From the NCBI GenBank assembly GCA_947179485.1, contig OX359246.1:930001-994000 (forward strand): DNA of 64,000 nucleotides. The letters are read 5' to 3'. Positions 7,441-19,600 of this stretch are shown piece by piece (the first letter of the stretch is position 1; every line of letters starts with the position of its first letter). The position numbers and the translations under genes are program-made. The DNA comes from Allacma fusca (taxonomy: Eukaryota > Arthropoda > Collembola > Symphypleona > Sminthuridae). Below the pieces are notes generated by a model. That model was not told the DNA's origin and made no database searches. It saw nothing but the letters and a program-made list of their open reading frames with translations.

Positions 7441-7813
7441 CAATATGGTCTTATTGACCAGCAACATTCGACTAATATTCTGCAATAGAAGCTGTTTTTG
7501 GATTAATGCAATGAAATATTTAATATTTTGGTTGGACATGAAAGTACATGTTAACGTAATGAAGCGCTTAATTTAATTATTAGAAAAACCGAGACTTAAG
7601 ACAAGTAAGCATGCACATCGCTTGACGTTGCTTTCGAACACATTAATGACTTGCTTCAAATCTACAGATGTTGCACCAACATCATTTCTCCTTTGGTGGT
7701 ACACTTAATAAAACTCATTCCTTTTCTCACTGCAACGGTAGACAACTATTCTTTGGCAATCCGAATATTTAATGAAGGCAGTTTTTACCGATATTACCAA
7801 TCAAAAAAATTAA

Positions 7814-8358
7814 TAGCTAAAAAAGCTAAAACAGAAGATGCTTTTGCGCTCTCAAAAGTTAAAAACAAGTTTTCTGGTTTGATTTGTCAAAGGAATCAAT
7901 ATTCTGTAACTCAAAATGATGAAAACGCTTGAAACGACGAAAAGCAACGCTACGATATGTATATAGTTCGTAGTCACCACAAAGTAGCCGAGTAGCAGCA
8001 CTACACCTTATTTTTATGAAATCCCACAATTTATTATTCATTGATTACACAATTATTGCAATTTCAGTAAATTCAGAAATTCTCACATGTTGAAAATACT
8101 AAGGTGGAATTTCGTATTTTAGAATATTAGATATAAAGTTAGATCAAACATTATTCTGAAACAAAGGTATGGTGCTTCTAATCGGCTACTTTATGGTGAC
8201 TATAAATATATCGTAGCGTTGCTTTTCGTCGTTTCAAGCGTTTTCATCATTTTGACTTACAGAATATTGATTCCTTTGAGAAATCAAACCAAAAAACTTG
8301 TTTTTAACTTTGAGGGCGCAAAAGCTTCGGCAAACTTCTGTTTTAGCTTTTTTAGCTA
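7814..8358. mobile_element. Long-TIR non-autonomous element, copy A, TTAA-flanked
   Basis: Left arm 7814-8001 and right arm 8172-8358 are inverted copies (about 188 bases) starting TAGCTAAAAAAGCTAAAAC. TTAA lies directly outside both ends (7810-7813 and 8359-8362), which would fit a TTAA-duplicating superfamily such as Kolobok or piggyBac. There is no ORF for a transposase. The arms share the word GCGCYCTCAAAAGTT and the ACGAAAAGCAACGC block with the elements at 9826 and 16126, so this is a diverged subfamily of the same group. Confidence 0.78.
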
Positions 8359-8628
8359 TTAATTTATTTCCAACTTTTTGATTCAAAAGCACAGATTACA
8401 ATGGTATCCAATGCTAAGGGGAAACATGATTTTCACGTCCAGTATTGTTAACAACACAGGAAAACAAATTATTTATTTCAACGTTCAACAATATTAAACT
8501 AAAATATTCCTTAAGCTCTGGATATCTTCCATTCCATGCCTGTTGGTTAGCACTAGTTGTTCAATATCAGTTGCGTATCCCGACCCCGACGGTGCTTTCA
8601 GTTTGAGGGAATTATTATGGCTTGCTTA

Positions 8629-9825: not shown

Positions 9826-10014
9826 TAGCTAAAAAAGCTTAAAAATAGAAGTTGCTTTTGCGCCCTCAAAAGCTGAAAACAAGTTTTCTGGTAGATGCTC
9901 TCAGAATAAATCCCACTAGTTTATTGAAAGTGATGAAAAATTTTGAAATGACGAAAAGCAACGCCACGATGGATAATTTCTCCTTGAGTACTCTTTCGAT
10001 AGTATTAATAATTA
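9826..10014. mobile_element. Left half of a long-TIR element (copy C), split by the CACTA-type transposon
   Basis: Starts TAGCTAAAAAAGCTTAAAAA and closely matches copy B at 16126-16310. The last two bases are the TA duplicated by the CACTA insertion. The element resumes at 15911. Its right terminal arm is not found after 15990. Confidence 0.8.
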
Positions 10015-10461
10015 CACTGTAAACAAAACGTTTATCCTAGATGTGGACTAGTTCTCGTTTAGTTACATCCACGAATAAATTCGGGCTGTCAAAGAAAAAA
10101 TGCGGGCTTAAAATCATCCCACACTGCAGTTTTATTTCAATTCTGAATTATTTATTCCCGAATAGCATAAAGACAAATCATTCCGCGTGTAGCAATAAAT
10201 TAATCCACACCGGGACTACAATATGTACGTTCTACAGACAGTTTTTATGCCTACACATTCATAAAAGCACGGAGCCATTTTGGAAACCGCTCATTTCACT
10301 ACTGCATGGTTAGTCTCAACAATTATTGTTGTTTGCATGATTTTTAAATTTGAATATTTATTACAAATTTGAGTTTATTTTAAAATTAAAGCGCTGTGAA
10401 TAAAATGGAATTCACAATTCTTGAAAAGGTATTCCACCAGCTTCAGCTTCCAGTAAACTAA

Positions 10462-13174
10462 ATGGAAAAATTTCGAGGTAAGTAATTCAAGCGCCGTAAG
10501 ATTAATACTTTATAAATTTATTGCCATACATGCTTTACGCCCAAAATTAATTTTTAGATAAAATTCTTTCGATTTTAAATTCCAATTTTTGTACCCACAG
10601 CGGAATGCATGGACGATCAAATAATGACGATGACGCTAAAAGACGAGGATATGAAAGAGGAGCTACGATCCGTTGTTCCAGTTACTGGTCATCGGATTGC
10701 AATAATAAATGCATTTAAATCAGCAATTAACGCCAATCAGGTAAAATGTTTAATTTGTAAATTATCTCTCTCACTAAAATGGAATGTCGTTTGGAGTCAT
10801 TTACAGAAGGCACATCAATTTAATAGCCGCTGTAAGAACTTCAAATGCCCAGTGTGTGAATCGGAGTTTATTTGGTTTAATTCTTTTCAAAGACATTTTG
10901 GTATGCATGTTGTACCAATGGAAACAGTTTTAGCAGTTAGCACACAAAAAGCAACCGTCAATGAGGATTATGAACATATCGGGCCTGAGCAAACAAGGAC
11001 CTATGAAAGTGATGGAGTTAATTGTGAGGTAGATTCCGAAGACGCAATGCGAGATTTCGAAAAGAGTGTCGTTTGTTGCATAGTAAAGCTAGTATCTACA
11101 GGAAAGATTCCTATGAACGTCTGTACAGAAATATGCAACAGTGTGCAAACTTTGCTAGAAAAAACAGTCAGCATTTGCGAAACGGAATTCTCCAAAACTA
11201 ACGGGGTAAACAATGCCGATTCAGTAGTTGCAAAATTGAAAAATGCATTTAGGAGCATAAAGTCACAGTACGCTTTGGAGAAGTACCTAAAATTCTGCGG
11301 ACTTTTTGTCGAGCCTGAAGAAATTTCACTTGGTTCAAGGCACAAAACAACACTGCGAAAAGGTGTTATCAAAACAAAACTTGTTCATGACACCTACCAG
11401 TTTGTTCCAATATCACAAACGTTGAAAAGAGTTCTAGAGTTACCCGGAGTGCTCGAAAGTGTTATTGAAATGTCAGCTCAAGCTAATTATCCTGAGCCGT
11501 ATTTTATACACTCCAACCCAATGAGGGCATCACATTTTCAAGAAAAAAAACAAAACAAATACTTTTGATGTTCAACACCCGATTGTTTATCTGCTCCTGT
11601 TTTTCGATGAAGTTGAAATTACCAATGTTTTATCATCTCGGGCAGGACTGCACAAACTTGGCAATTGCTATTTTACCCTTCTGAATATTGATCAATTGTA
11701 CAATTCTAAGCTTGAAAATATATTTCATTGTATTTCATTCAAATCCAAAGATATTCCAAAATATTCACTTGCAAAAATCATGACTCCTCTTATTAATGAT
11801 TTACGTGAGATGGAAAATATTGGAGTAGTAGTTCACAGTCATACATATAAAGGAAAAGTGAATGTTAGACTAGGACAAGTAATTGGTGATAACTTGGGAA
11901 TGCACATGCTTTTTGGATTTACACAGTCATTTTCAGCAAATTATTATTGCCGATTTTGCAAGATGCCAAAACTGCAGTGTCAAGTATCTGGAAGAAATGG
12001 GCAGAAATACACTCGCACAAAAGAGAATTACTCCAGAGACCTTGGAAAAAATGCACCATCGGAAACGGGAATTAAATGTGACTCTTCATTCAATGACCTG
12101 AAGTTTTTCCATATAACAGATAATTACAGTCCCGATGTTATGCATGATTTCGACGAAGGAATCGTTCCACTTGACATTAAATTGGCACTTGTACATATTT
12201 TACATTCACGTGAAACATCCATTGAAAATCTGAACTACAGAATTGCAAGTTTTAACTATGGAAATTACCAAAACTCAAAACCTAGCCCACTCAACATGCA
12301 CAAGTTAACTACCAATGATACGAAAATAGGACAGACAGCAGGACAGATTATTACCCTTTTATTTGCGTTTCCATTTTTGTTTGGAGACCTTTTTGAGGCT
12401 GCAGACCCCTACTACAATTTAATGTTACTTCTACAAGATATATTAAAAATTATAATGGCTCCCGTTGTAACCGATGCAATGATCAATACCCTTCGGGATT
12501 TATTAGATGACCACCATTACTTGTACATGAAGCTGTCCAAATGTAATTTAAGACCAAAACATCACTTCGCCACGCATTATCCAGACCTAATTAGAAAGAT
12601 TGGCCCACTTCTTCGCTATTGGACAATGCGCAATGAAGCAAGACACAAGTTCTTCAAAGGGGTTGCAAACATTTGCGGAAATTTCAGAAATATTTGCAAA
12701 ACTGTTAGTCGCAGAAATCAACTTTATACGTGTTACAAATTTTTGCTTCGAGAACCTTTTAGTTCTACGGAATTTTGTGAGCTTGGTTCTACATTGGCAA
12801 GTGCAGACGAAAGTAGTTATTCAGACCTGTTCAGCAATTATTTCGATAAACCAAATGTGTCTATAACGCTGATTGATGAAGTGATTCTGAATTCCTGGAG
12901 ACTTTGTACCAAAACACATATAGTGCTTGACAATGTGGAAGGTGTGCAAGGATTTGCAGTGATAAAGTTACTGTTTAAGTACAATAATGTAAATTACATT
13001 GTAATATCCCGTGTCGCAGTGAATTATGATTCTCACATGAGAGCTTATAAAATTTTGTCAGTTTTAGAACCCACAATTGAGATATTAACCAACGCTTTAA
13101 TGTTCCAGCCACTAAATGTTTTCAAAAACTTTAAGACAACTGATCAGTGGATACAGCTGCCGTATGAAATATAA
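10462..13174 (+). CDS. Transposase-like protein with two C2H2 zinc fingers (frameshifted)
   Basis: Probable DNA-binding and cleavage protein of the CACTA-type element. A short first exon, 10462-10477, joins in phase to 10601-13174. Counting from the Met at 10609, one finger uses C47, C50, H64 and H69 and a second uses C80, C83, H96 and H100. The later part includes FFDEVE, a CRFCK cysteine pair, the motif VMHDFDEGIVP and KHHFATHYP followed by WTMRNEARHKFFK. These resemble a large family of animal proteins usually annotated as uncharacterised. FFDE, MHDFDE and RNEAR are my candidates for a DDE triad (inference). An eight-A run at 11543-11550 carries a one-base excess; upstream and downstream frames are otherwise open for about 315 and 530 codons. 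It may be a sequencing error or a recent mutation. The start in exon 1 is inferred from splicing. Confidence 0.75.
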
Positions 13175-13220
13175 GCTAATGAATGAATTACATTTTTGTT
13201 TATTACTTTAGATCTGTAGC

Positions 13221-15342
13221 ATGCTGGATACGAACGAGAATGCCCAACCTTTGATAATAGACTATGAGGTACAAGTCTTTCTGTCACGAGTATTTTGTAG
13301 CTACAATGTAGTGTACAATTATGTGTTTATATGTAATAGTTAGTGAAACTGAACAATAACCGTTTGCTTTGTTTGAATAGGGCAACGCTTTGTCGGTGTT
13401 TATTCCGAATGTGAAACCGGTAGAGGATTCCGCAACCAGCACAAATTCTGTTTCAAATGTTGAGCAAGTTGTGAAACGCAATCGAAAGAGAAAGAGATTC
13501 TTTGATGACGATGATGAATTAATTGTATGAGTTTTGATATCAGAAGTATATTTTGTCCTTAATAATTTCAAGTCACACCTCCGCTCTTTGTATTTAGAAC
13601 GTGAAAAAAATTTTGCTCCGCCATGACAAGGATATGGGAGTTACATTTGGCCCGGACATTATTAAGACATCCGATTCATTGAAGCCACTTCAACCAAAAT
13701 TACGCAGACACCTTATAAAAATCTTGTGTCAGGAGTTGGTGAGGAAAAGTCATTCTGTAATGTAAGTACACAATTCAGCAAAAATCTGAATGCATAAGCC
13801 GTGTACATATTTATACTCATACTAATCATTATTTCAATTAATATTTCCAAAGGCCCTCAACAGACCAGCGGGATCAATTGGCAACGTGTATTGTTTCTCA
13901 ATTGTATCCGACATTCACCGGGACACAATACAAAGATCTCAAGGTGTCATAAAATCAATTCCAATTAATTACTCTCCATTCGTATTCCATTATGGTATGT
14001 ATACGTGTTAAGAAAACATGGTTATTCTAGGAATCTTTCTACTCACCTTCGACGACCATTTTGGATAAGGTCACTGGAAATAAAAGATTGATCTCGCCTA
14101 CAGGACATATTCAGTACCACTTTAAGAATTTTTGGAGCTCCATCCGCCAAACGAATGGTTCGGCTAAGCTGACGCAAAATGCAGATCCAATTGTTGAGGA
14201 GAATTTTGAGAATGGTAATAAAATTTTATGAATATAATTTTCTGTAAAGTTATTACATGTTATTACATTAATACTTTATGTACTTTGAAATTGCAGTTGA
14301 AATGAAATCAGATGTCATGGATATGAAGAACTGGCTTCTCAATCATGTTGCACCTCCTCAAAAGGTCTGCGACTACATGCTTAAGACGTTCACACTTCGC
14401 CGGATGGAGATATTAAAATGTAAAAGCAAAAATGACTACGGTGCATTTTTGCATGAGTGGCCTAGGCTGGTTGACACTCCCGGAACCGTGAGTTGTAAAT
14501 TCAACAGGTTAATTTCAGAAAGTTTGAATTTTATTATTAAAACTAGCATGCAATTAATTTTCGGAATGTTGTCTTCAATTTTTACAGCTTGAGCATGACT
14601 TCAGTCAATCATATCCACTGGTTGCTGACAATTTGTCTTCCAGATGGGAAACAGTTTCAGCCAAAATTGTTGAATATTTCGGCTCAATGAAAAAAACCCT
14701 TCTTCCGTTCGGAATTCGACAATATTCAGGTAAGTTCACAAATCACCTTACATAAGGACAGAAATTATCCAAATTTAAGGATTTATGCTTTCTGCTTTTT
14801 TCAGAAACGAGTCAAAGCATGATTGCATTTTTTATGTTGGCAGTTCTATTGCGATCTAAAGTCAAGAAGATAACGCAAGCAGATAGCGTTAAAACTTTTA
14901 TTCGTCTAATTCCGGTAATTATTTACAGACATTATTTGATACAATAAAAATGAATATTTTGTACATGTAATCCAAAAATATTAACTACCTGTATACGAAA
15001 ATATTTATTTTTGCCAATTGCTAATATTCTTAGGTTTTGGAAGACATTGATTTGATTGCATCGAATCTACCAGAAACTACTACACTTATCGTTTGCAAAG
15101 GAGATTTGGAGAATTTTGTACTCGATAGCTACTTCGTCATATTTAATTCAAGAGCAATGAAGGCAGAAACATTTTTATCTGCCGTGGACCTTGCGTTCAA
15201 GACGTTTTACGTCTTTAATCTTCAATTTCCAGCAAGTTGTGGGGCAGTCTGGCAATTTCTGGATTACCATATTTATGACATGGTACAGAAGTCACCCCTT
15301 CCCCCAGGAGTGTCAGAGTTATCCGCATTTTTGAATCAATAA
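13221..15342 (+). CDS. CACTA-element companion protein, 460 residues, nine exons, intact
   Basis: Nine exons join without a stop: 13221-13268, 13381-13524, 13598-13761, 13853-13943, 14031-14214, 14297-14487, 14588-14729, 14805-14914 and 15034-15342. All have GT-AG borders and matching phases. Residues 48-55 (KRNRKRKR) are a likely nuclear localisation signal followed by an acidic DDDD stretch. Later segments (TGHIQYHFKNFW, a DFSQSYP stretch, and a C-terminal VFNLQFP block) resemble, from memory, the C-terminal region of proteins annotated as SAM-domain-containing 3-like, which in several animals sit beside zinc-finger proteins of the kind encoded upstream. No SAM domain is seen here. The ATG lies 46 bases after the transposase stop, and a TTTAG acceptor just before it suggests a spliced leader exon. 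Role unknown; a nuclear accessory protein for transposition is plausible. Confidence 0.8.
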
Positions 15343-15343
15343 A
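15338..15343 (+). promoter_or_regulatory. AATAAA poly(A) signal overlapping the companion-gene stop
   Basis: AATAAA overlaps the TAA stop of the 460-residue gene and is followed by a T-rich stretch. It is the likely shared 3' end signal of the element. Confidence 0.5.
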
Positions 15344-15910
15344 ATTATATTATTTTTATAGATACGGCTATTACTGGACTGCCTTTGGTATTTCGTTTAA
15401 TAATTAAATCAAATCACTAGAATTTAATTAATTGTTTTTCTTTATTTTAAATATTCAGATCTTAGAATGTTATTGTTAAATAAACATTGACCCCCCGATG
15501 AATCATTATTATATAGTTGCTATAATTGTCTAAATGTGATGTGTGATGCAAATAAATCTGAATAATTTCTCTTAAAAGTTTTCGTCACGCATTCAATAGT
15601 ATTTTAAAAACGAACATACCAGACCTGCATTTACTAACCTTACGGCATGCAAGAATAACTATAGAGCATTTCCAGATTTAATTTTTTCCCGTACCGGAAA
15701 CTAATTTGTTCTTGGTGACAGTCTCAAAAAATTACGCCTGGGCAGCAATACGTTTTTCAGGCACAAAATCATACCGGGTGGGTTTACTTTTAACCAAACC
15801 GCAGTACAGTACTAGATTATGCATGGCCATGCAACGTGTACCAGATATTACTGGCCAGCCATATGCAATTGACCAGATAGCAATAAATTTCAGCCGGTTT
15901 TTTTAGAGTG

Positions 15911-15990
15911 TAACAATTTCCAACTTACATCTCAAAATTGATAAATTCAGTATTCATTGCAAACCAACTTTTTCACAGCTATTTCTGCAT
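15911..15990. mobile_element. Right remnant of the long-TIR element (copy C)
   Basis: After the duplicated TA, this matches 16309-16388 of copy B with about five differences and then stops abruptly at TTTCTGCAT. The right terminal arm seen in copy B is absent here, so the host element lost that end. Confidence 0.75.
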
Positions 15991-16125
15991 ACAACTCTAT
16001 TTCTGAAACAATATATACATAACTTTTTTTTTTAATGTTTCTATTGGAAAGGAAAAAACTGGAAGCAACACCGAGAGAGGAACATTGTTCGTACATACAA
16101 TAAACTGGTTTAAAAAATAAAATAA

Positions 16126-16546
16126 TAGCTAAAAAAGAGAAGTTGCTTTTGTGCCCTCAAAAGTTGAAAACAAGTTTTCTGGTAGATGCAGTCAGAATAA
16201 ATCCCACTAATTTATTGAAAATGGTGAAACCTCTTGAAATAACGAAAAGCAACGCCACGATGGATAATTTCTCCCTTAAGTATATACTCTTTCAATAGTA
16301 TTAATAATTAACAATTTCAGACTTACATCTCAAAATTGATAAATTCAGTACTCATTGCAAACCAGCTTTTTCACATCTATTTCTGCATCAGTGACAATAA
16401 TGTCGTGGAGTTGCTTTTCGTCATTTCAAGATTTTTCATCACTTTCAATAAACTAGTGGGATTTATTCTGAGCGCATCTACCAGAAAACTTGTTTTCAGC
16501 TTTTGAGGGCGCAAAAGCAACTTCTATTTTTAAGCTTTTTTTATTT
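16126..16546. mobile_element. Long-TIR non-autonomous element, copy B (empty-site sister)
   Basis: The left arm from 16126 and the right arm from about 16405 are inverted copies of about 140 bases. They carry GAAGTTGCTTTTGYGCCCTC and a block ending CTTGTTTTC. The middle holds the uninterrupted sequence ATTAATAATTAACAATTTC, the empty target of the CACTA-type insertion. The right tip is degraded by a T-run. No ORF. Its right edge lies about 65 bases before the first SMC6 exon. Confidence 0.78.
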
Positions 16547-16611
16547 TTAAATCTTTTTGGAGAGTCAACTTCAGTATTTCTAATGTCTTTGGAAATTCCC
16601 TGTACATTTAG

Positions 16612-19600
16612 ATGCTTTGAAGAACGTTGGCAAGAGACGAATGACGCGTTGACTCAGAAAAAGTCTGAGTATGATCAAATTCGTAAGAAGACGCAGTATG
16701 TGAAATTCGAGATAATGGACGTGATCACAGAGATGAAAAATACTATCAAAACAATTGAAACCCTTGCTCAGAATAAGCGAATTGTTCAAGGAAAACTTGA
16801 TGAACATCGACGGACTGCCAGTAATGATTTTGAATTTAGAATGAGGGCTCTAGCAAATGAGAAGGCCCCTCTGGTGGCCCAGGAACAAGCCCTTCAACAT
16901 CAGTTGGCACTTCTACAAGAAGATCGTCCCAGGCTTGTAGCAGACGAAGACAATGCTACCAAGATTGATTCACAACTCAAGTTAAACGTCCAGGAAGTTC
17001 AGCAGAGATTAGGTGAGTGGGGAAAGTTCAACTACTTTTCTTGTGATTGTCACCTTGGTTACCCAACAATAAAATGTGAATGAAGCTCTACTCCTAATGT
17101 GAAATTGAGTGTGATTTTTTTAAAATGCAGATGATACTCAAAAAGAACTAACAGCCTGCCATAAAACCGATAACGCCAAGCATGAAGTGTACGGTCGCGA
17201 AATGTCCAAGCTGGTAGAAAAAATAGGTCGGGAGAAGAGATGGTTAAAGAAACCCCGGGGTCCCTTGGGTTGCTGTATAACCCTTCAGGTTAATAATTTT
17301 ACTTGTGTTTGTCAATCAAAAGTTACATGCTTTTCAGGTCTTTTATATCAAGTTCGGGTTAAGGAGATTTATTGATCGCATGTTTTGTTCACTTTAGGAT
17401 GACAGATGGCTTACCGTGGTTGAGTACATCCTGGAAAACACCTTAAATTATTTTGCCGTTGACAACAAGCACGACCAACAAATCTTACTTAAACTGATCA
17501 GTGACGTGTATAGCACTAGAGGGAGAGGAGGCTGTAAAAATAAGCGGATGCAATCAGTGTGTATGACAACGTTTTTAGTAAGTTTCTATGGAGTGATCCT
17601 CAAGTTAATGCAGCCGAGAAATATGGTCTGTAAAATTTCTCTCTCGAGATAATTGGAATCTCACAATCAAATCTGGGTGTGATTTCAGGACAAGAAGATA
17701 ATTGTTGGGGACAAAAATGCATCTAGACAAGCGGGCGGTCATCCTTCTGTTTTGGACGTGACCTAGATAGTTGATGATGATCCTGTGGTATACAATTGGG
17801 TTGTTGACATGCTTCGCGTGGAGAGGATATTGCTTTTCGAATCCTATGAAGAGGCTTGTGACTTTTTGACCAAACAGATGTGAGTTGAAGAAAGAATGCG
17901 AAAGGATAAGTCAGGATCACTTATTCAGTTCTTAGATTTTCATGAAAATTAGTGTACTGGGTAATTCGGAGCGAAGATCACGATCACGGATCAGATTAGG
18001 ATTTAAAAATTTCCATATTATTTGAAGAATATAAATGAGCTATTGATGACGGAGATACGACATCCCAGTCAAAAGTTACTGCAAATTCTTGAAATTCACG
18101 GTGGCTCCCGAAATGGATAAATAAAAACATTTTGAACAATTTAGACAACGATTTAATTTATCTAAACAGCTTATAAACGATGTAATTATTACCACAATTC
18201 GTGGATCTTACAGGATAGCATTTCATCACTTGTACAATTAGTATGTTTATAACCAAGTTTATAACAAATATTTTTTGTGTTAAAAATGTTTGAAATTATT
18301 ATGTACTGTGTCGTAAGGCAAATACTATTGTGGTATCAGTGAAATAAATTATTTCTTTCTCTCTCTTTGAAACTTTTGAATCCTATTTGAAATAAATTTG
18401 AAATTCTATCAAAGGTAAATTATTTCTCCTATGGTGGAGGGAAAATGTATCTGGCAAATCCGTATTGGAGACAAGAGTGGTTGCGAAATGTTGGTCGAAA
18501 AATCCCCGTGTTGTATTACCCCTCAAAAATTTTGACCAGGAACTGAGTGGAGTTTAATTTTTTAAGCAATGAAGTAGGTTTTACACGAGCTATAAGTATA
18601 GTATACAAAAGCTATTAACAACTGAGATGCAGCATTCTGGTCAAAAGCTATTACAGACTTTCAAGAAAGAAGATTTTTTTAGGAATTTGAAATGTCATGA
18701 AAGGAAATTCCTCCGGCGGGGGTGGGGGAAGCAGTATCGTTGTACAACCCCAAAAATTAGAATTTTGACTACAGTTTCAAACTTATTGTCGAATTGATTT
18801 TTGTATACGGCAATTAAATAGCTTTTGATTGAAATTATATTATGTATGTATGTATAGTTTTATTGATTTGAGCTTCCGCTCCTTCAATATGTATAAGTAC
18901 AAGTGTGATTGTTTACATTTGTTTTGAAATGTCCTCAAGAAAACGATAGATTAGTATGGCAAAATCATTTTTAATATTTTTAATTAAGCTTTCCAGGAAA
19001 GTTTGAATCATGGGATGATGCGATGGGTTGATATTGGATAGACTTGCTGATCTATAGTTGGAGAGCAAGTGACATTCAAGGAAGAGGTGACTCCAAGTCC
19101 TGCTAGACTGTGAACAGAAAATACATTTGTCCCGGCGTAGAGTGATCTCGTGGAAATGAATAAATATTGGCCCCATTCTAATACGGGCTAAGATGCCTGC
19201 GATTCTTAACGGGGTAGAGGTTCTTGTATACTCTTCCGCAAGGTCGTGTGTTTTGATTCGTTTGTATAAGAGGAAATGAGTCGATTCCATCATTTTGGCT
19301 ACATCTTGAACTACTAGTGATTGTTGATACTTGCTAACTATCTCAGGTATAGCGGCACGTATTTCGTCCGGCGATTTGCAGTTCCATAAGCCTTCTGGGA
19401 GAAAATCCTTGATTCTAGAATAGAGAAGGGAGCTCCAGTTGAAATTTTGGAGGCCCGTTTGTTCTCCCCACATGTCCTTGTAGCAGCATAGAAACAAGTT
19501 GCTGGTATTTTTCTGAAGACATTTAGTCCATAATCTTAAAGCTCGTCGTATGATATCCACACTGATCCTTTTAAGCTTGAAATCTAGGTTAAGGAAGAAC

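Follow-up and report, generated by a model that had tools for sequence, protein, structure and literature searches.

A CACTA-related transposon of Allacma fusca predicted to encode a transposase and a companion protein with a common SAM-like N-terminus

Element ends, copies and pairing of the two genes

The stretch of DNA analysed here (the window; 64,000 nucleotides of Allacma fusca, C8:930001-994000 within an assembly of 393 Mb in 91 contigs) carries a transposon of 5,896 bp at positions 10015-15910. The element begins with CACTG at 10015 and finishes with GAGTG at 15910, i.e. it has CACTG/CACTC ends. Its left terminal inverted repeat, CACTGTAAACAAAACG (10015-10030, + strand), belongs to a left end that is identical in 5/5 near-identical copies, and its right terminal inverted repeat reads inward as CACTCTAAAAAAACCG (15895-15910, - strand). 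The element is flanked by a TA target-site duplication (10013-10014 and 15911-15912, no strand), recognized by flank comparison and by an empty site. Inside it, a zinc-finger transposase-like gene (gene 1), whose stop codon ends at 13174, is followed on the same strand, after 46 bases, by the first ATG (13221) of a companion gene of nine exons and 460 residues. An earlier note on this DNA had reported these ends, the TA duplication and both genes; all were confirmed, the ends and the duplication with a paralogous empty site (16285-16388, + strand) inside a host repeat (repeat families D2 and D6). In this empty site, 16285-16310 resembles the left flank 9989-10014 and 16309-16388 resembles the right flank 15911-15990, and the two segments overlap by exactly the 2-bp TA. 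The host repeat is foldback-like, with arms of about 140-146 nt, and occurs several times in the window (7803-8369, 9831-10014 together with 15911-15990, and 16110-16551); the transposon is inserted within one of these copies.

Searching the assembly with the DNA of the transposase, we obtained at least 40 scored matches, comprising the window copy, four further copies at 99% and 35 at 64-74%; loci were fetched as 20 stretches of 10 kb, six of 6.5-7.5 kb and one of 6.2 kb, and are referred to below by locus numbers. Nearly the whole element recurs at four other places with 98.5-99.3% identity and the same left end, and its occurrence is therefore more than chance. With the window copy included, both ends are present in four of the five; L013 is truncated on its 3′ side. 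At least seven diverged subfamilies also exist in the genome, and in some of them the frames of both proteins are open. Equal 2-bp flanks (TA, CA, TG, AA or CT) were found in all 18 two-ended copies, 16 by script and two (L029 and L033) after the left end was shifted by one base. A 3-bp duplication was rejected, its lone match (1/18) having come from a misplaced left end. The termini follow CACTS..SAGTG with variants (GCGTG in L021 and L022, CACTA in L029, and both terminal bases altered in L015), some ends of diverged copies having been shifted one base by eye to begin at CACT. Judged from sequence, the element falls among the cut-and-paste transposons of plant CACTA/RAG1 type, and its family is mobile and recently active.

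From the listed matches we built 61 companion and 55 transposase loci, leaving out rows that represented additional exons or fragments of a locus already counted; in the companion search, 92 of 333 candidates were scored and the listing covered a part of 181 matches. Gene 1 lay within 15 kb in 39 of the 61 listed companion loci, and in 39/39 of these the companion was located downstream of gene 1 in the same orientation. Four of the 22 unpaired companion loci were inspected (L029, L030, L033 and L035), and all proved to be elements with internal deletions. They carry CACT ends and 2-bp duplications, keep the SAM-like start described below, at least part of the zinc fingers and the companion end exons, and have lost the catalytic core. 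No stand-alone host copy of the companion was found among these four. The earlier note had asked whether adjacent pairs are always bounded by CACTR ends with 2-3-base duplications, as opposed to companions lying mostly alone at host loci without transposon ends. In this genome the 39 paired loci and the four deleted elements with ends speak against companions that are mostly alone; the termini are CACTS with variants, and the duplication is 2 bp in the 18 two-ended copies. The deleted copies L029, L030 and L033 differ in length (3,269, 2,642 and 2,125 bp, respectively) and, with about ten similar listed loci, form an internally deleted multi-copy family in which the 110-residue last companion exon is intact. 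A translatable fusion protein was also sought in these three copies and rejected, no continuous frame being present.

Even where subfamilies have diverged to about 45-55% identity, the companion keeps the same position. Protein distance matrices of transposase and companion from 18 copies had a correlation of 0.91, and 0/9,999 permutations were as high. In the four pairs between L015/L016 and L018/L019, the ratio of nonsynonymous to synonymous substitution rates (dN/dS) was 0.12, 0.19, 0.16 and 0.22 for the companion and 0.28, 0.26, 0.32 and 0.31 for the transposase, showing purifying selection at the sequence level between these two clades; deeper pairs were saturated at synonymous sites. By these measures, the transposase and the companion evolve largely in parallel; judged by the pairing of the loci, the companion belongs to the element.

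Predicted splice forms and their common N-terminus

Gene 1 begins with an exon at 10405-10477 (+ strand), which is open in L010-L013, and continues with a second exon of 2.6 kb. In the window copy, an in-frame stop in exon 1 and a frameshift near 11.55 kb in exon 2 disrupt the transposase, and in L010 and L012 the frame is open over 881 residues. The first 71 residues of this frame resemble a SAM domain, which starts in exon 1 and has its remainder in the first part of exon 2 (10601-10740, + strand); both parts would be common to the two predicted proteins. Compared by hhalign with SAM domains (a hand-entered set of four), the N-terminal domain gave P = 1.7e-4, and 6.3e-4 in a second run with a probability of 11.5 against at most 0.4 in 60/60 column shuffles. 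The earlier note had linked the companion to proteins of other animals annotated as SAM-domain-3-like; the SAM-like domain seen here is encoded in the transposase frame, and none was found in the companion exons.

Directly after the SAM-like domain lies a predicted alternative 5′ splice site, CAG|GTAAAA (10741-10746, + strand, phase 0), which is the sole MAGGTRA in exon 2 in 7/7 subfamily representatives. At this place a donor of the form CAG or AAG|GTAA was found in 25 of the 27 loci searched; 23 of these have it in phase 0, and L023 and L028 carry a frameshift at the site. Elsewhere in exon 2, an in-frame MAG.GTA is present in at most two of the seven in any codon column, columns 68-74 being the donor site. 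Estimated from codon use with the residues given, the chance of MAG.GTA in all seven would be p ~7e-8 if the subfamilies are independent.

Between the two genes, a pyrimidine-rich tract and an AG soon after the gene-1 stop were found in 12 of the 14 copies of the intergenic stretch; in the window the predicted 3′ splice site (AG) is at 13210-13211 (+ strand) and opens a first companion exon of 57 bp in phase 0 (13212-13268, + strand). Measured from this AG to the next GT, the first companion exon is 36-57 bp long, and in 12/12 copies, which represent seven subfamilies, its length is divisible by three and its frame is open and in phase with the exons that follow. It has no methionine codon in seven of these copies (subfamilies C, E, F and G, four of the seven), where translation must then begin upstream or at a later ATG. 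The companion probably does not start at ATG 13221. A direct junction of exon 1 to the companion exon was also considered and rejected, for it has the wrong donor phase and meets an immediate stop; the donor at 10740 fits instead.

These features suggest that the element is one transcription unit with two predicted splice forms sharing a SAM-like N-terminus, a SAM-zinc finger-DDE transposase and a SAM-companion, and we put the probability of this at about 0.78. The splice form itself we infer; the conserved donor and acceptor phase, like the ends, the 2-bp duplication, the catalytic signature and the pairing, are read directly from the letters. Of the earlier description as a two-gene CACTA-type element with a conserved companion, the pairing and the parallel evolution hold, while the data point to two splice forms and not to two genes. 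This interpretation of the two proteins is what appears to be new here.

Several observations weigh against it. Pfam SAM_2 was detected in one of four N-termini (E = 0.11), no Pfam SAM match was obtained in three altered N-termini, and a PDB profile search with the N-terminal domain reached a best E of only 0.24, with BICC1, a SAM-domain protein, at 0.85. The decayed loci L025 and L026 have no match to the donor-stretch search motif. L021, in which the acceptor AG is changed, and the diverged L018 do not fit the acceptor pattern and were left out of the first-exon count, and the acceptor/donor pairs of that exon were picked by eye, which weakens the phase count and not the donor count. The first companion exon of subfamilies A, B and D contains an in-frame ATG, at which the companion could have a start of its own. 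No listed companion lies within 15 kb of 16 of the 55 gene-1 loci; in L024, the one of these that was inspected, 10 kb held no companion match, and the resemblance to sister copies ends within gene 1. The trees of the two proteins have their young clades in common and differ in some deep branches, mostly with support below 0.9. Constraint on the companion is weaker in other pairs, with dN/dS of 0.84 for L015-L016, 0.38 for L010-L012 and, in a rougher count to which frameshifted copies and intron read-through add noise, 0.73-0.78 among L021, L022 and L034 and for L025-L026; decay of dead copies would give the same high values. Against Pfam and PDB the companion gave no convincing match, and its last exon alone was modelled with a mean predicted local distance difference test (pLDDT) score of 69 and a best PDB match of E = 2.3, i.e. 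no known fold. Finally, the AlphaFold model of the transposase is of low confidence (mean pLDDT 48.9), and its template modelling scores to RAG1 are low (0.19-0.31); we therefore claim the family and not structural details.

Alternatively, the two genes may be separate, gene 2 having its own promoter and starting at ATG 13221 and the SAM-like domain belonging to the transposase only. The 460-residue frame is complete by itself, and subfamilies A, B and D offer the required ATG. In subfamilies C, E, F and G, however, the first companion exon is open and in phase without any methionine, an acceptor precedes this exon in the 12 copies checked, and the donor-like site, unique in exon 2 and conserved in gene 1, would have no other obvious purpose, so that separate genes appear unlikely. 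A host gene captured as a passenger is less probable still. Nine exons are unusual for a transposon gene and would suit such an origin, but the companion occupies the same place in subfamilies diverged to about 45-55% identity, its distances are correlated with those of the transposase, and the four unpaired loci inspected included no stand-alone host copy.

As to its task, the companion may be a self-defence or regulatory protein, e.g. an anti-silencing factor or a repressor made from deleted copies, and not a transposition factor, which we regard as possible but doubtful. The deleted copies L029, L030, L033 and L035 retain the SAM-like start and the companion end exons, and maize TnpA also regulates its own promoter, according to the portion consulted of PMC1636069. 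However, no single open frame joins the parts in L029, L030 and L033, the junction in L035 is out of frame by our reading, and these copies could just be non-autonomous elements. The companion may also combine transposition and regulation, as TnpA does.

Domains of the predicted proteins and a possible mechanism

The transposase-only part of exon 2 (10741-13174, + strand) would be the intron of the companion form. It starts with two C2H2 zinc fingers (10747-10908, + strand), which were recognized by profile matches and whose best PDB profile matches were C2H2 chains (best E = 7e-5); Pfam zf-Di19 was detected in 10 of 15 transposase members, and SF3a60_Prp9_C, a zinc-finger-bearing family, in two. 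The DDE core follows at 11606-12637 (+ strand), with D at 11606-11608, D at 11888-11890, C(2)C at 11948-11959, H(3)H at 12563-12577 and E at 12635-12637, these window coordinates having been derived by hand from the alignment. In that alignment of 15 contiguous exon-2 translations, some of them partial, the signature residues were conserved in 13/13 (D), 15/15 (D), 15/15 (C), 13/15 (C), 14/14 (H), 13/14 (H) and 14/14 (E) non-gap rows; as judged from this conservation, the transposase carries the CMCT (CACTA/Mirage/Chapaev/Transib) signature. Pfam Transposase_21 (tnp2) matched six of the 15 members (best E = 0.0012), below the curated cut-off of 28.6 bits as judged from the E-value.

The transposase model had 36 PDB matches at E<=0.001, every one a chain from a RAG1/2 complex with the length of RAG1; HzTransib appeared at ranks 38-40 (E ~1e-3). 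In our reading of the model, the strands and helices around D338, D432 and E681 are in RNase-H order. On this low-confidence model, the core appears to have a RAG1/Transib-like catalytic fold. Beyond the core, residues 731-859 (numbered in exon 2 of L010) form the longest well-modelled stretch, mostly beta with pLDDT of 59-85 by ten-residue blocks, and correspond to a C-terminal beta-rich domain at 12785-13171 (+ strand) of the window. DNMT1 BAH1 and BAH-bearing methyltransferases were among the PDB matches of the transposase (E = 0.003-0.02, printed with no query range). We tentatively assign these matches to residues 731-859, and the C-terminus is perhaps BAH-like. The BAH domain in DNMT1 reads a histone mark; a BAH-like C-terminus would hint at chromatin reading by the transposase.

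After its first exon the companion continues on the + strand with exons at 13381-13524, 13598-13761, 13853-13943, 14031-14214, 14297-14487, 14588-14729, 14805-14914 and 15034-15342, all eight introns between the nine exons being GT-AG. Among the five near-identical copies, the companion frame is closed in L013 alone, where the script also misplaced the first exon. The exon at 13381-13524 ends in a conserved basic patch, KRxRKRK-FFDE, and the last exon is the most conserved block (FYVFNxPFPxxC...WQFLDY). An AgrD match in the companion of L031 (E = 0.00022; 21.6 bits, cut-off 22.7) was set aside, as it falls where the tblastn-anchored sequence of this copy differs from other members and probably reflects an intron or a wrong frame.

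Retention of the whole of exon 2 would yield the 881-residue transposase, consisting of the SAM-like domain, two C2H2 fingers, the RAG1/Transib-like DDE core and perhaps the BAH-like C-terminus. Joining the donor 10740|10741 to the acceptor 13211|13212 would skip the fingers and the catalytic core and give a SAM-companion of about 534 residues (71 + 3 + 460). The two proteins may then meet through their common SAM-like domain. The companion may act as a TnpA-like partner, binding element DNA by its basic region and assembling the ends, regulating the promoter, or both, and the basic patch may serve nuclear entry as well as DNA contact. Both proteins together would pair the ends, which the RAG1-like core would cut at CACT and join to a target staggered by 2 bp. 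Such a scheme would follow the logic of TnpA and TnpD in maize (PMC1636069).

Comparison with known systems and further observations

With Transib and RAG1, the transposase shares the fold proposed above and the D-D-C(2)C-H-H-E signature. Transib makes 5-bp duplications, RAG2 is a different kind of protein from the companion, and we know of no companion in Transib/RAG1 that is spliced from a shared domain.

The use of a second protein by RAG1-like CACTA transposases is known mainly from maize. Plant CACTA elements make 3-bp target-site duplications, and TnpA-type subterminal repeats are typical of plant En/Spm. The present element differs from plant En/Spm in its 2-bp duplications, in the Transposase_21 match below the gathering score, in a companion that resembles no Pfam family convincingly, and in the N-terminal SAM-like domain common to both predicted proteins, which to our knowledge occurs in no plant element. 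No subterminal repeat array was found by an exact-octamer count, which would miss degenerate repeats: octamers present at least three times in the terminal 300 bp of both ends numbered 1, 0, 2, 1, 0, 0 and 2 in seven elements, with shuffle means of 0.10-0.21 and maxima of 2-3. The likeness to maize En/Spm lies in the CACT ends, the DDE transposase and, as predicted here, a second protein made by alternative splicing of the same unit. In the sections consulted of PMC1636069, TnpA and TnpD of En/Spm are described as products of one transcription unit by alternative splicing, the second protein being needed for transposition.

The same sections report TRC elements from Schistosoma, Aedes and Tribolium, and describe for SmTRC1 2-bp duplications in seven of 14 copies analysed, alternative splicing, two tandem open reading frames (ORFs) in one clone and a second protein of 299 aa (PMC1636069). 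SmTRC1 is similar to the present element as an animal CACTA-related transposon with 2-bp duplications, alternative splicing and tandem ORFs. It differs in that TRC termini are CCC and the terminal inverted repeats of SmTRC1 are 54 bp; in those sections the parts outside Transposase_21 are reported as not detectably conserved, and no SAM domain is mentioned (PMC1636069). The suggestion that such pairs were undescribed was only partly right, a two-ORF animal CACTA-related element, SmTRC1, having been in print in 2006 (PMC1636069). Searches of open PMC full texts brought up no paper on a SAM-domain CACTA pair, as judged by titles and abstract openings, Repbase being outside this scope. The CMCT group is characterized by the motifs C(2)C and H(3-4)H, mostly CA..TG ends and 2-5 bp duplications, and its members ESTA, Plavaka and Lanisha share these motifs with the present element, as do ESTA and some Plavaka elements the 2-bp duplication, according to the portion consulted of PMC12730594. 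In that portion, ESTA and Plavaka are fungal, some with TET/JBP genes, and Plavaka termini are TGT..ACA or CATCA..TGATG (PMC12730594).

The shared-domain splice layout would be a simple proposal for how a transposase and its accessory protein find each other. It would also explain why, in other animals, zinc-finger transposase genes have a SAM-domain protein as their neighbour, if such pairs do occur there. Animal SAMD3-like proteins may have a SAM domain and a companion-like C-terminal region at similar length. We suggest, tentatively and as something short of probable, that there may be a widespread animal CMCT lineage with splice forms docking by the SAM-like domain, and that SAMD3 and SAMD3-like host genes, including vertebrate SAMD3, may be its domesticated accessory form. 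Relatives were confirmed neither among the pattern matches in viral contigs (15, 44 and 22) nor among those in prokaryotic genome contigs (42 and 326), and a fold search against BFVD gave no match at E<=0.001. With at least seven diverged subfamilies, some open for both proteins, this arthropod-like element would be a tractable animal model.

To the right of the element, beyond the repeats, lies a 203-residue open frame (16472-17083, + strand), which is charged and coiled-coil-like and perhaps a host-gene exon. COX1 of this assembly can be read without interruption under the invertebrate mitochondrial code, and six of the contigs measure 48-82 Mb, which would fit a springtail. Elsewhere in the assembly, several near-full-length copies of COX1 were found in the large contigs C12, C5 and C8, besides the 14.9-kb contig C91, and are probably nuclear mitochondrial insertions. 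18S ribosomal RNA was located at the ends of two chromosome-size contigs, at the end of C8 (L037, an Rfam match) and at the start of C1 (L036, by eye), which may reflect either ribosomal DNA at chromosome ends or a stop of the assembly.

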